Assembly (NCBI GenBank): GCA_019052695.1
Contig: JAHQRI010000004.1
Span: 2,169 to 38,627 of the forward strand
Direction: 5' to 3'
DNA length: 36,459 nucleotides
Source: Candidatus Omnitrophota bacterium
GTDB taxonomy: Bacteria; Omnitrophota; Omnitrophia; Omnitrophales; Aquincolibacteriaceae
Shown piece by piece: positions 24,565 to 36,059 of this stretch. Every line of letters begins with the position of its first letter. Position 1 is the first letter of the stretch. Made by a program: the position numbers and the translations under genes. The notes under the pieces were generated by a model. That model saw nothing but the letters and a program-made list of their open reading frames with translations, was not told the DNA's origin and ran no database searches.

Positions 24565-26142
24565 TTATCCCTTGAGCAGTTTATATTCGATGGCCTCGAC
24601 AAGAGCCTTCCAGCTGGCCTCGATGATGTTCTCGTGAACGCCGACCGTGGTCCAGGCACGGGCCGTCCCCTTGTCCTGGAACTCGATAAAAACACGTACC
24701 TTGGCGGCCGTTCCGGCCTCGGAGTTCACCACGCGCACTTTGTAATCCGTAAGATGGATCTTTTCGATCTCGGGATAGGAGCGGCCGAGCGCTTTCCGGA
24801 GTGCCGAATCCAGCGCGTTCACGGGCCCGTCCCCTTCGGCCGACTCGAAGTGTTCCTTGCCCTTTGCCGTCAATTTAACATCCGCAACCGACCGCGGGCT
24901 GCCGTCACCGATCTTCTCGGTGCGGACCGAGATGTCCTTGATCTTGAAGAACGGCTTAAACCGCCCCAGCAGTTTTTTCACGAGAAGCTCAAAACTAGCC
25001 TCCGCAGCTTCAAATTGATAGCCCTCATGTTCCAGACGCTGGATCTCGGTCAGGATCTTCTTGGTCTCCGGGGAGTCCTTCTGGAAATGCAGTTCCAGTT
25101 CCTTCGCCTTGATCATAATGTTCGTTTTGCCGCCGAGTTCGCTGACAAGGTAGCGGCGGTAATTCCCGACCGCCTTGGGCTCGATGTGCTCGTAGGTCTT
25201 CGCGTTCTTCACCATCGCGTTGATGTGCACGCCGCCTTTGTGCGCGAACGCCGAGCGCCCCGTGAACGGCTGGTTGTTCACGAGCGGCATATTGCAGACC
25301 TCCGCGACATAATGCGAAAGAGCGGAAAGTTCTTTCAGTTTGGCCGGCGGAAAGCATTTGAAACCCATCTTGAACTGCAGGTCCGGGATAATGCTCGTGA
25401 GGTTCGCGTTCCCGCAGCGCTCCCCGATCCCGTTGACCGTGCCCTGCACCAGCACACACCCTTCACCGGCCGCCTGGATCGAATTCGCGACGGCGAGCTC
25501 GGCATCGTTGTGGCAGTGGATCCCGAGCGGCGTTTTCACCGTACGCTTGACCCGTAGGATCGCGTGGCGGACCTCGTGAGGAAGCGTTCCTCCGTTGGTA
25601 TCGCAAAGCGTGAGGTTATCCGCGCCGGCCTTTGCAGCCTGCTGGAGCGTCTTGAGGGCGTATTCGGGGTTCGCCTTGAAGCCGTCGAAAAAATGTTCGG
25701 CGTCGTAGATCACTTCGATCTTCCGGTCCTTCAGGAACGCGACCGTTTCGTAGATCATCAGAAGGTTTTCTTTGAGCGCGGTCTTGAAAACCTCCGTCAC
25801 GTGCATGTCCCAGGATTTCCCGAAGACCGTGACGACTTTCGTCCCAGCCTCGAGCAGGGCCTTGACCTGAGTGTCCTCTTTGACCTTCATGTGGGCCCGC
25901 CGTGTGGAACCAAAGGCCGCGACCTTCGAACGGCGCAGACCGGCCTGCTTGATCATATGGAAAAACTCCATGTCCTTCGGATTGGAGCCCGGCCATCCGC
26001 CTTCGATGTAGTGAATCCCGAACTGGTCGAGCCGCTTCGCGATCAAGACTTTGTCATGAGAGGACAAACTGATCCCCTCCGCTTGAGAACCGTCTCGTAA
26101 AGTTGTGTCGTAGAATTGAATTTTTTTAGCCTTGTTTTTCAT
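24565..26142 (-). CDS. cimA: Citramalate synthase (CimA)
   Basis: CimA condenses pyruvate with acetyl-CoA to (R)-citramalate, the first step of the threonine-independent isoleucine route. 525 residues from the ATG at 26142, which has TTGGAG at 7 nt. The HMGL-like catalytic domain has FYDTTLRDGSQAEG (10-23) with the metal Asp, and HCHND (209-213) with metal His residues. The signature NGIGERCGNANL (237-248) and the C-terminal LeuA-type regulatory domain (about 390-520) follow. EGGWPGSNPKD and the length (LeuA and HcsA differ) favour the CimA/LeuA2 type. It is probably feedback-regulated by isoleucine or leucine through the C-terminal domain. Confidence 0.95.
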   Translation of the reverse strand: MKNKAKKIQFYDTTLRDGSQAEGISLSSHDKVLIAKRLDQFGIHYIEGGWPGSNPKDMEFFHMIKQAGLRRSKVAAFGSTRRAHMKVKEDTQVKALLEAGTKVVTVFGKSWDMHVTEVFKTALKENLLMIYETVAFLKDRKIEVIYDAEHFFDGFKANPEYALKTLQQAAKAGADNLTLCDTNGGTLPHEVRHAILRVKRTVKTPLGIHCHNDAELAVANSIQAAGEGCVLVQGTVNGIGERCGNANLTSIIPDLQFKMGFKCFPPAKLKELSALSHYVAEVCNMPLVNNQPFTGRSAFAHKGGVHINAMVKNAKTYEHIEPKAVGNYRRYLVSELGGKTNIMIKAKELELHFQKDSPETKKILTEIQRLEHEGYQFEAAEASFELLVKKLLGRFKPFFKIKDISVRTEKIGDGSPRSVADVKLTAKGKEHFESAEGDGPVNALDSALRKALGRSYPEIEKIHLTDYKVRVVNSEAGTAAKVRVFIEFQDKGTARAWTTVGVHENIIEASWKALVEAIEYKLLKG

Positions 26143-26209
26143 ACTTTTCTCCAATGAGCACATCCCTTATGGAGCGTGTAGCGCGACATAAGCGATCTGT
26201 GCGAATTGG

Positions 26210-26470
26210 ACCCAGCACTAATTTTATTTTAAAAGCGATCTTCGAAGCCTATTCTTTAAATGCGTTCTTGCCTGTCCATAATGCTTAAGTTTACGTTCCC
26301 TTTCTCGCCCGTCTTCTTCTGCCAAATACCCCTCACAACCAGCAATTTTCCAAGCATCCCCATGCTGCTGCAATCTCCTTCGAAGATCGCTTGTGTATCC
26401 ATAATAAACCTGCTGCGTTCGTCTGTGTTTGAGAATATAAACCCAGAACATCATAAAATTAGTGCTGGGT
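26210..26470. mobile_element. 261-bp unit with perfect 18-bp terminal inverted repeats and a GIY-YIG ORF
   Basis: ACCCAGCACTAATTTTAT occurs at 26210-26227 on the plus strand and at 26470-26453 on the minus strand: perfect 18-bp inverted ends. A weaker symmetry extends outward (AGCGAT and GAATT on both sides). The unit contains nothing but the GIY-YIG ORF, whose stop codon lies in one repeat and whose ATG lies in the other. It sits between lysC and cimA. Confidence 0.8.
26224..26454 (-). CDS. Minimal GIY-YIG nuclease inside inverted repeats
   Basis: About 76 residues beginning MMFWVYILKHRRTQQVYYGYTSDLRRRLQQH, a clear GIY-YIG motif pair (VYI and YYGYT) followed by the Arg-containing helix. EEDGRERERKLKHYGQ provides the Glu. 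ATGs at 26454 and 26451 are both possible; there is no Shine-Dalgarno, and the upstream bases are the inverted repeat. The frame remains open upstream to 26508 but without a better start. Compared with the usual 85-100 residues of this family it is short. Its tight fit to the repeat ends makes it the likely mobility function of the unit, although GIY-YIG nucleases are not known transposases. Confidence 0.82.
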   Translation of the reverse strand: MMFWVYILKHRRTQQVYYGYTSDLRRRLQQHGDAWKIAGCEGYLAEEDGRERERKLKHYGQARTHLKNRLRRSLLK

Positions 26471-26521
26471 AAATTCCGGCTTATCGCTTGCGTCTCTCTG
26501 TTCCGCAAGCGATGCCGTCAT

Positions 26522-27739
26522 TTATTTCTTTCCTAACCCAAACGCCCTATGGATCACCTGGGCCGCGAGCTTGCCTTTGCCGCCGGCCACCACGCAGGAG
26601 ATCTTGATCTCGGAGGTGGAGATCATGTCGATATTGATCTTATTCTTCGCGAGCACGGAGAACATCTTCGACGCGATCCCCGAGTGCGAACGCATCCCGA
26701 TCCCGACCACGCTGACCTTCGCGATGTTCTGATCGCTCATCACTTCGCCCACGCCGAGCTTTTTCGCGTTCGTTTTGACCACCTTGAGCGCCTTGGAAAG
26801 CTCGTTCTTGAAAACGGTGAACGAGATGTCGGTCGCGTTCGTCCGCGTCTTGTTCTGGATGATCATGTCCACGTTGACGTTCGCGTCCGCGAGCGTCTGG
26901 AACACCCGGGCCGCGACGCCGGGGCGGTCCGCGACGCGGAACAGGGTGATCTTGGCTTCGTCTTCGGCTAACGCGACACCGCTCACTACGACCTCTTCCA
27001 TGGCTTTCGTCTCCTTCGTGATAAGAGTTCCTTTGACGTCCTTATGGGAATTGCAGACCCAAATGGGCATGTTGAACTTTTTGCCGACCTCGATCGAACG
27101 CGAGTGCATGACCTTCGCACCGAGCGACGCCAACTCCAGGATCTCGTCGTAGGTGACCTGGGCCATCTTTCTCGCGTCCGGGATCACACGCGGGTCCGCA
27201 GTGTAGATCCCGTCCACGTCCGTATAGATCTCGCACTGTTTCGCCTTGAGCGCGACCGCGAGCGCCACGGCCGTCAGGTCCGAACCGCCGCGGCCGAGCG
27301 TCGTAATCTCCCCCGAAAGGGTCTGGCCCTGAAAGCCCGCCACGATCACGATCTTGCCGTCCGTCAAGGCCTTCCGGATGCGGTCCGCGCTGATCTTCTG
27401 GATGCGGGCCTTGCTATGGAACGCGTCCGTGATGATCCCGACCTGGGGCCCGGTGAAAGAGACCGCTTCATGGCCAAGTTTGTGCACCGCCATCGCGAGC
27501 AGCGCGATCGAAACTTGTTCGCCCGTCGCGAGCAGCATGTCCATCTCCCGCTCCTCCGGGGCCTTATTGATCCGGTCCGCCAGCGTGATCAGATCGTCGG
27601 TCATGTCTCCCATCGCAGAAACAACGACGACCACCCGGTTCCCCGCCTTCTTCGTCCTGACCACGCGGCGGGCGACCCGCATGATCTTCTCGGCGTTCGC
27701 GACCGAGGAACCCCCGTATTTCTGGACCACAAGCGGCAT
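26522..27739 (-). CDS. lysC: Aspartate kinase (LysC)
   Basis: LysC phosphorylates aspartate, the entry to lysine, threonine and methionine synthesis. 405 residues: VQKYGGSSV (5-13), [29 protein letters not shown] and [15 protein letters not shown] define the kinase domain. Two ACT domains follow (about 265-335 and 345-400, the second beginning [22 protein letters not shown]), so feedback control by lysine and/or threonine is expected. The ATG at 27739 matches the family N-terminus and puts AAGGA at 9 nt; an ATG two codons upstream is also possible. It lies downstream of the ApgM-like gene, separated by a repeat element. Confidence 0.96.
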
Positions 27740-27788
27740 AAGCATCGATCCTTTCAAAGTATTAGATTAAAAGCGATCCTGTTGATTC

Positions 27789-35725: not shown

Positions 35726-36059
35726 GCGGGAATCCAAACTAATGAAGACATATTACCTTTATATTATGGCTAGCCAAAAGAGGGGAACGCTCTACATTGG
35801 CATCACAAATGATCTCTTGAAACGTGTCTTCGAACACAAAAAAGATCTTGTAGATGGTTTCACCAAGAGATACTGCGTCCATAAACTTGTTTATTACGAA
35901 AAAACCTCTGATATTATGTCTGCCATACTCCGCGAAAAAAGAATGAAGGAATGGAATAGGCAGTGGAAAATCGATCTCATTGAAAAAGAGTATCCTTACT
36001 GGCATGATCTTTATGATACATTGGCCCACTGTATGGATTCCCGCCTCCGCGGGAATGAC
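35726..36059. mobile_element. Inverted-repeat-bounded GIY-YIG unit
   Basis: GCGGGAATCCA (35726-35736) and its reverse complement TGGATTCCCGC (36034-36044) bracket the ORF, the ATG following 5 bp after the left copy. The right end is itself a hairpin, GGATTCCCGC-ctcc-GCGGGAATGAC, a form seen widely as intergenic repeats in bacteria. The layout parallels the 261-bp unit at 26210-26470, with unrelated repeat sequence. Confidence 0.65.

Follow-up and report, generated by a model that had tools for sequence, protein, structure and literature searches.

Tiny inverted-repeat elements with a GIY-YIG nuclease as their only gene: an Omnitrophota unit and its widespread relatives

In the literature that we searched, prokaryotic transposable elements with inverted ends all owe their movement to a transposase or a recombinase. 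A short unit in the genome of a Candidatus Omnitrophota bacterium raises the question of whether a GIY-YIG nuclease could take that role. The unit lies in the window, the whole 36,459-nt stretch of DNA analysed here. A sequence-only reading had described it as perfect 18-bp terminal inverted repeats (TIRs) enclosing a GIY-YIG open reading frame (ORF) that starts in one repeat and stops in the other, with no transposase inside. That description is accurate. The two 18-nt ends are 100% complementary, with an ungapped score of 18 against a best score of <=11 in shuffled flanks, and the ORF matches the Pfam GIY-YIG family at 8.4e-7, above the curated cut-off. The nuclease ATG (26454-26452, minus strand) shares two bases with the inner edge of the right TIR, the TAA stop (26226-26224) falls within the left TIR, and no transposase lies between the TIRs (26210-26470). 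The unit DNA is single-copy across its 1.88-Mb draft genome, and among named genomes the best matches all come from Candidatus Omnitrophota MAGs. It has no match in plasmid, phage and viral collections, and the window region has no Rfam match. The features are collected in Table 1.

Table 1. Coordinates of the unit, its repeats and its neighbours in the window
Feature	Position	Strand	Basis
Left TIR, ACCCAGCACTAATTTTAT	26210..26227		16-mer also in 38/384 Omnitrophota genomes; reversed control pattern 0
Right TIR, ATAAAATTAGTGCTGGGT	26453..26470		Inverted-repeat match to left TIR
Slx1/UPF0213-like GIY-YIG nuclease, 76 aa	26224..26454	-	Pfam; conservation in 69 homologues; AlphaFold2; Foldseek/profile
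Outer extragenic hairpin, left (AATGAGC..CTTATG..CATAAG..GCGAATTGG), flush with TIR	26153..26209		RNA folding; homologous units
Outer extragenic hairpin, right (AAATTCCGGC..ATCGCTTGCG..CGCAAGCGAT..GCCGTCATT), flush with unit	26471..26521		RNA folding; homologous units
Inner inverted repeat, arm 1 (AAGCGATCTTCGAAG), within ORF	26233..26247		Sequence comparison
Inner inverted repeat, arm 2	26378..26392		Sequence comparison; synonymous-shuffle test
Downstream neighbour gene	24565..26163	-	ORF list; orthologous neighbourhood in G001 and G002
Upstream neighbour gene	26522..27757	-	ORF list; orthologous neighbourhood in G001 and G002

By eye, we take the downstream neighbour gene to be alpha-isopropylmalate/citramalate-synthase-like, with a start that is more likely at 26142, and the upstream one to be aspartate-kinase-like. 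An inner ORF repeat of the GGAAACGCYTCAA type also occurs in the CCCCGTTAG subfamily of homologous elements (L011, L025, L027, L129, L141), where it scores 12-16 against a synonymous-codon-shuffle maximum of 11. The inner repeat of the window element lies at equivalent codons and has a different sequence. Near the right end of the window (35751-35840, plus strand) there is a weak, divergent GIY-YIG match (E 0.9) with no TIRs.

Homologous ORFs were drawn from relatives, from a sample of 384 Omnitrophota genomes and from named genomes across phyla. A GIY-YIG homologue match is present in 161 of the 384 sampled genomes, and homologues are found in Omnitrophota, Patescibacteria lineages, WOR-3, Chloroflexi/Dehalococcoidia, Verrucomicrobia, Planctomycetales, Bacteroidetes and Deltaproteobacteria. 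In a blind scan, TIRs, called at an ungapped inverted-repeat score >=11, hug 105 of 138 distinct GIY-YIG ORFs compared with 3 of 308 random intervals from the same loci (Fisher p ~5e-68); some homologues have no TIR. This enrichment and the shuffled-flank scores reject a chance origin of the TIRs. Total element length is 240-340 bp, and the inverted ends are 13-24 nt long with a CCC... core, more fully (A/G/T)CCC(C/A)... At least six end types occur, among them ACCCAGCACTAATTTT, ACCCCACACCCAGC, ACCCCCACACCAATTA, ACCCCGCACCTTCTT, ACCCCGTTAGAGAY, ATCCCATCACCTGC and ACCCTTGACACT with others, and across these types and many phyla no ORF type other than the GIY-YIG nuclease is found inside. Repeat and ORF co-vary, as had been proposed for checking: TIR distance tracks protein distance in 90 elements (Mantel r 0.553 against a permutation maximum of 0.131), a correlation that arises in part from co-descent within one small unit. 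The ends are near-identical even where the proteins diverge by 30-40%. Judged by these comparisons, the window unit belongs to a family of tiny GIY-YIG-only mobile elements that is widespread and had not been recognised before.

Comparison of genomes proves insertion in one genus, where relatives retain empty sites and the element is bordered by a TGAA duplication. In this genus of 27 genomes, the element at locus L104 reads TGAA-CCCCGCACC...GGTGCGGGG-TGAA, or ATGAA-CCCCGCACCTTCTT...AAGAAGGTGCGGGG-TGAA with a wider flank. The same site is uninterrupted in G077, G141, G387 and G144, with a single TGAA, and is empty with the one-letter variant TGAG in five further congeners. At this site G283 has an ORF-less unit with both TIRs, the ends of the G134 copy are decayed, and the copy in G326 is full. 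Of twenty further copies read in the genus, one is a full element at a different locus (L305) and the other 19 are MITE-like, mostly with a length of 73 bp. An exact 4-bp target-site duplication (TSD) borders 15 of the 20, and all are TGAA (TTCA on the other strand) within ATGAA. Comparison of these copies shows that ATGAA is the preferred target and TGAA the duplication. In a broad sample of elements outside the hairpin-flanked class to which the window unit belongs, an exact 4-bp TSD is present in at least 14 of 54, compared with 4.6% when flanks are paired across elements (p 1e-7); the count is a lower bound because ACCCC and ATCCC ends were counted in one register. These TSDs include CTTG, TGGA, TTGA, TAAA and TAAT, and their variety indicates that the duplication is more than a fixed recognition sequence. 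On this evidence, we regard the mobility of the family as very highly probable.

The choice of target appears to spare the genes around it. In 16 of the 54 insertions outside the hairpin-flanked class, the left junction is the stop of an upstream long ORF and the right junction the start of a downstream one, an arrangement seen at 0.1% of random positions. At such ATGA junctions the duplicated TGA preserves the stop of the upstream gene, and the T at the element end together with the GA of the duplication is often the stop of the nuclease itself. Downstream, a new GTG or ATG start arises from TG and the terminal base of the element, which is G in the CCCC...GGGG type and A in the ATCCC...GGGAT type. 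The genes that gained a rebuilt start are, as read by eye, presumably nrdR (L104) and purN (L305). Insertion that rebuilds stop and start codons in this manner would be a way of adding genes to operons undamaged.

Some copies sit in genes for structural RNAs. At L052, L055 and L058 a single LSU_rRNA covariance-model match (23S rRNA gene) encloses the element, and the L062 element adjoins an RNase P RNA match, where we place it by eye inside the P12 helix. At the 23S rRNA and RNase P sites the ORF would be looped out of the RNA on the TIR stem. A covariance-model scan of 18 relatives found no intron family. Two Komeilibacteria units with CCAAATTTTCAGC ends (L072 1-366 and L073 790-1160) begin precisely at the CCA of a tRNA gene; beyond each unit, the 3' end of the tRNA is imperfectly repeated. 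Three loci from different Patescibacteria lineages (L044, L069, L071) have an identical 3' flank (CCACAACATTGAGC), which suggests a common target sequence. At L098, L128, L147, L028, L030 and L127, neighbours stand head to tail with only a 3-4-bp target between them (GGGG-TGAA-CCCC, GGGG-TTTA-CCCC, GGGATGATCCC), and L127 contains a 398-bp tandem repeat of 91% identity that includes a GIY-YIG ORF.

A search for the repeat with and without the ORF had also been proposed, and both forms recur. Abundant ORF-less, MITE-like derivatives of 35-140 bp carry the ends of full elements, and MITEs at different loci of one genome are 85-95% identical. Among the places listed for the 384 genomes there are 49 exact TIR pairs, 40 of them at 35-107 bp and nine at 261-272 bp, and all nine of the latter are GIY-YIG elements. 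The exact 16-mer end is found in the 38 genomes of Table 1, and one genome (G054) holds 55 TIR matches. The nuclease co-occurs with any TIR match in 14 of 38 genomes against 3 of the other 346, a comparison that is partly circular because full elements themselves carry the TIR; a MITE-only test was used instead. In that test, a cognate GIY-YIG nuclease, defined by E up to 1e-25, is present in 8 of 20 genomes with MITE pairs and in 9 of 364 others (p 2e-7).

The units of the subclass to which the window copy belongs, the ACCCAGCAC type, are bordered on both sides by hairpins that end in GCGAATTGA. Across all loci there are 51 such hairpins; 46 run directly into a ACCCAGCAC-type unit, and most of the remaining 5 have a divergent CCC hairpin next to them. 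The window copy has both outer hairpins and forms a hairpin-unit-hairpin block at 26153-26521. Since flush outer hairpins recur around homologous units, the true inserted block of this subclass is probably ~370 bp, hairpins included. The entire block is absent from relatives at three MITE loci, where the flanks are too diverged for the junctions to be read. In 61 units of the subclass, agreement between the flanks at k=5 is 8% within units and 2% across units, which does not make a convincing TSD because the anchors are defined by motif. Empty sites with target duplications, proposed earlier as the evidence to look for, are thus present in relatives, with a 4-bp TSD, and no clean one was found for the subclass of the window among these 61 units and three block-absent loci. 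In G001, of the same genus as the window genome, 18 bp separate the matches to the two neighbour genes and there is no unit, and in G002, also of this genus, the left hairpin, one decayed end and an ORF fragment remain. The window copy is probably an old insertion and does not look active, because its genome has no second copy, G001 lacks the unit and G002 keeps it in decayed form. The proposal of a 261-bp mobile unit therefore stands as regards a mobile family and needs amending as regards this copy, which looks old and to which the inserted block probably adds two hairpins.

The nuclease itself is well conserved. Residues Y6, Y17, G19, R27, H31, E53 and K57 are invariant in 69 aligned homologues, and E41 is present in 68 of the 69. 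AlphaFold2 models the window protein with a mean pLDDT of 94.7, and the nearest solved structures by profile and Foldseek are UPF0213 (1zg2) and Slx1, then I-TevI. The GIY-YIG motifs and the catalytic Y, Y, R and E are present, which fits the Slx1/UPF0213 branch of the superfamily. The median dN/dS is 0.18 over 24 pairs, with values of 0.05-0.14 in most of the clean pairs; purifying selection thus maintains a functional ORF.

We give a probability of about 0.68 to the reading that the unit is a minimal transposable element of a large family, with inverted ends around an Slx1-like nuclease gene and with the nuclease driving movement. The sequence-only reading had left two options, a nuclease that moves its own repeats or a nuclease carried as cargo of a non-autonomous element; the former is favoured, not proven. 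Genome comparison shows insertion, the 4-bp duplication, a target preference, amplification without the ORF and a maintained nuclease. From these we infer that the nuclease is probably the mobility enzyme and that it would catalyse the cleavage in element movement. It also seems likely, though we hold this a little less firmly, that a GIY-YIG protein of about 76-85 aa alone serves as the transposition enzyme of these cross-phylum TIR elements of ~260 bp, recognising the hairpin-forming ends of its element and an ATGA(A) target with a 4-bp TSD, serving MITEs in trans and leaving coupled-gene junctions unbroken.

The movement may proceed as follows. In single-stranded or supercoiled DNA, the ends, being self-complementary, would form an extruded hairpin or cruciform. 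The nuclease would recognise these hairpin-forming ends and cut at the base of the structure, and such recognition is consistent with its kinship to Slx1, a structure-specific nuclease of branched DNA. It would also cut the ATGAA target with a 4-nt stagger. GIY-YIG enzymes are known as hydrolytic nucleases and not as strand-transferases, and for this reason joining by the host must be assumed. The ends would then be joined and the gap filled by the ligase and polymerase of the host, which would produce the TSD. The nuclease could act in trans on the MITE-like derivatives. The ends appear to be fitted to the ATGA stop/start junction, such that the upstream stop would remain intact, the duplicated TGA would close the nuclease ORF and a new GTG or ATG would arise downstream. 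The window copy would be an old insertion of a subclass that travels with its two flanking hairpins.

The unit could instead be a non-autonomous MITE moved in trans by an unseen transposase, likeliest a DDE enzyme because of the 4-bp duplications, with the nuclease as a passenger for addiction, homing or defence. TIRs with a 4-bp TSD are the classic product of DDE transposition, and ORF-less copies also move. Moreover, 12 of the 20 MITE-bearing genomes have no detected cognate nuclease, which may reflect draft genomes or loss of the driver. Against this reading, none of the 49 exact TIR pairs listed for the 384 genomes is IS-sized (0.7-2.5 kb) or transposase-bearing. Two transposase families, Y1_Tnp and DDE_Tnp_1, were tested as alternative drivers, and this scope itself leaves the passenger reading some room. 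MITE presence follows the nuclease and neither of these: Y1_Tnp is present in 12 of 20 MITE genomes against 255 of 364 others, DDE_Tnp_1 in 3 of 20 against 85 of 364. Y1/RAYT and DDE_Tnp_1 were both rejected as drivers for lack of association with MITE-bearing genomes. The window genome and G054 have no match to either family at threshold. That at least six types of end, across many phyla, hold the nuclease as their sole ORF type also speaks against a passenger, and we consider this explanation unlikely.

Homing would account for the spread in another manner, by cleavage of an empty ATGAA site and copying of the element by gene conversion, with the TIRs incidental, for example as an RNA hairpin that protects the transcript of the host. 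GIY-YIG is a homing endonuclease fold, the positions occupied in 23S rRNA and RNase P genes are reminiscent of intron and IVS sites, and orthologous sites are polymorphic between species. However, homing copies into cognate sites with no target duplication, whereas here many unrelated loci carry 4-bp TSDs and ORF-less derivatives amplify, which makes homing very improbable. Least credible of all is that a Y1 transposase (RAYT) has spread the palindromic ends as REP-type repeats, one of which merely happens to hold the GIY-YIG ORF. The short inverted pairs, small spacers and outer hairpins do look REPIN-like, but Y1_Tnp shows no enrichment in MITE genomes, and neither the window genome nor G054 has a match to it at threshold. 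The family also makes TSDs, and we know of no RAYT product that does.

Movement driven by the nuclease would set the family apart from the systems that it resembles. Like DDE insertion sequences and MITEs, the family has TIRs, short TSDs, internally deleted non-autonomous derivatives and precise empty sites, but it has no transposase; its sole gene is a GIY-YIG of ~80 aa, and it targets ATGA junctions, where it restores start and stop codons. It shares with REPIN-RAYT systems short palindromic units, dispersed and extragenic, and one presumed driver gene with matching ends, although its driver would be a GIY-YIG protein instead of a Y1 HUH transposase and it has 4-bp TSDs. I-TevI-type homing endonucleases, freestanding or intron-encoded, have the same catalytic fold and selfish spread; in contrast, the family has no intron or DNA-binding tail, and has TIRs and TSDs. 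The Slx1/UPF0213 standalone proteins are closest to the family nuclease in sequence and fold, and to our knowledge they are not TIR-flanked or mobile. A 2006 analysis of the GIY-YIG superfamily includes standalone Slx1-like proteins and leaves inverted repeats unmentioned (PMC1564403). Tsy transposons are prokaryotic and encode a GIY-YIG nuclease, which is a non-essential accessory to tyrosine recombinases (PMC10293859), whereas the family element has no other gene. A number of family members are situated within 23S rRNA, as are rRNA IVS and insertion elements, including the unclassified GIY-YIG insertions of CPR bacteria (PMC11270868), but most of the members found here lie outside rRNA. In the 2024 survey of CPR rRNA insertions, the GIY-YIG ORFs all fall in insertions that resemble neither intron class, and they seemed to be outside a homing context; a text search of it returned no mention of inverted repeats (PMC11270868). 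No description of bacterial TIR-bounded GIY-YIG elements was found in the literature; few subscription papers and preprints were covered, and priority is uncertain.

The comparative data suggest that a small nuclease of ~80 aa can move DNA with no known transposase. If this is true, an element of ~260 bp would be among the smallest autonomous mobile elements known and would bring a new chemistry to mobility. It would also account for the abundance of small GIY-YIG genes in Omnitrophota and Patescibacteria, and for their presence in rRNA genes in the absence of introns.

Another small gene was considered as a possible sharer of the TIR. IVP genes (PF05635), a four-helix 23S rRNA family, are multi-copy in 38 of 58 relatives. 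The idea was rejected, since the 30 IVP loci have no CCC-type ends and have other inverted repeats instead. These loci (L185-L214) are mostly bordered by inverted arrays of 6-8-nt tandem repeats, such as AGTCGTGAGTCGTGAG / CTCACGACTCACGACT, and they look like a second, distinct sort of small element.
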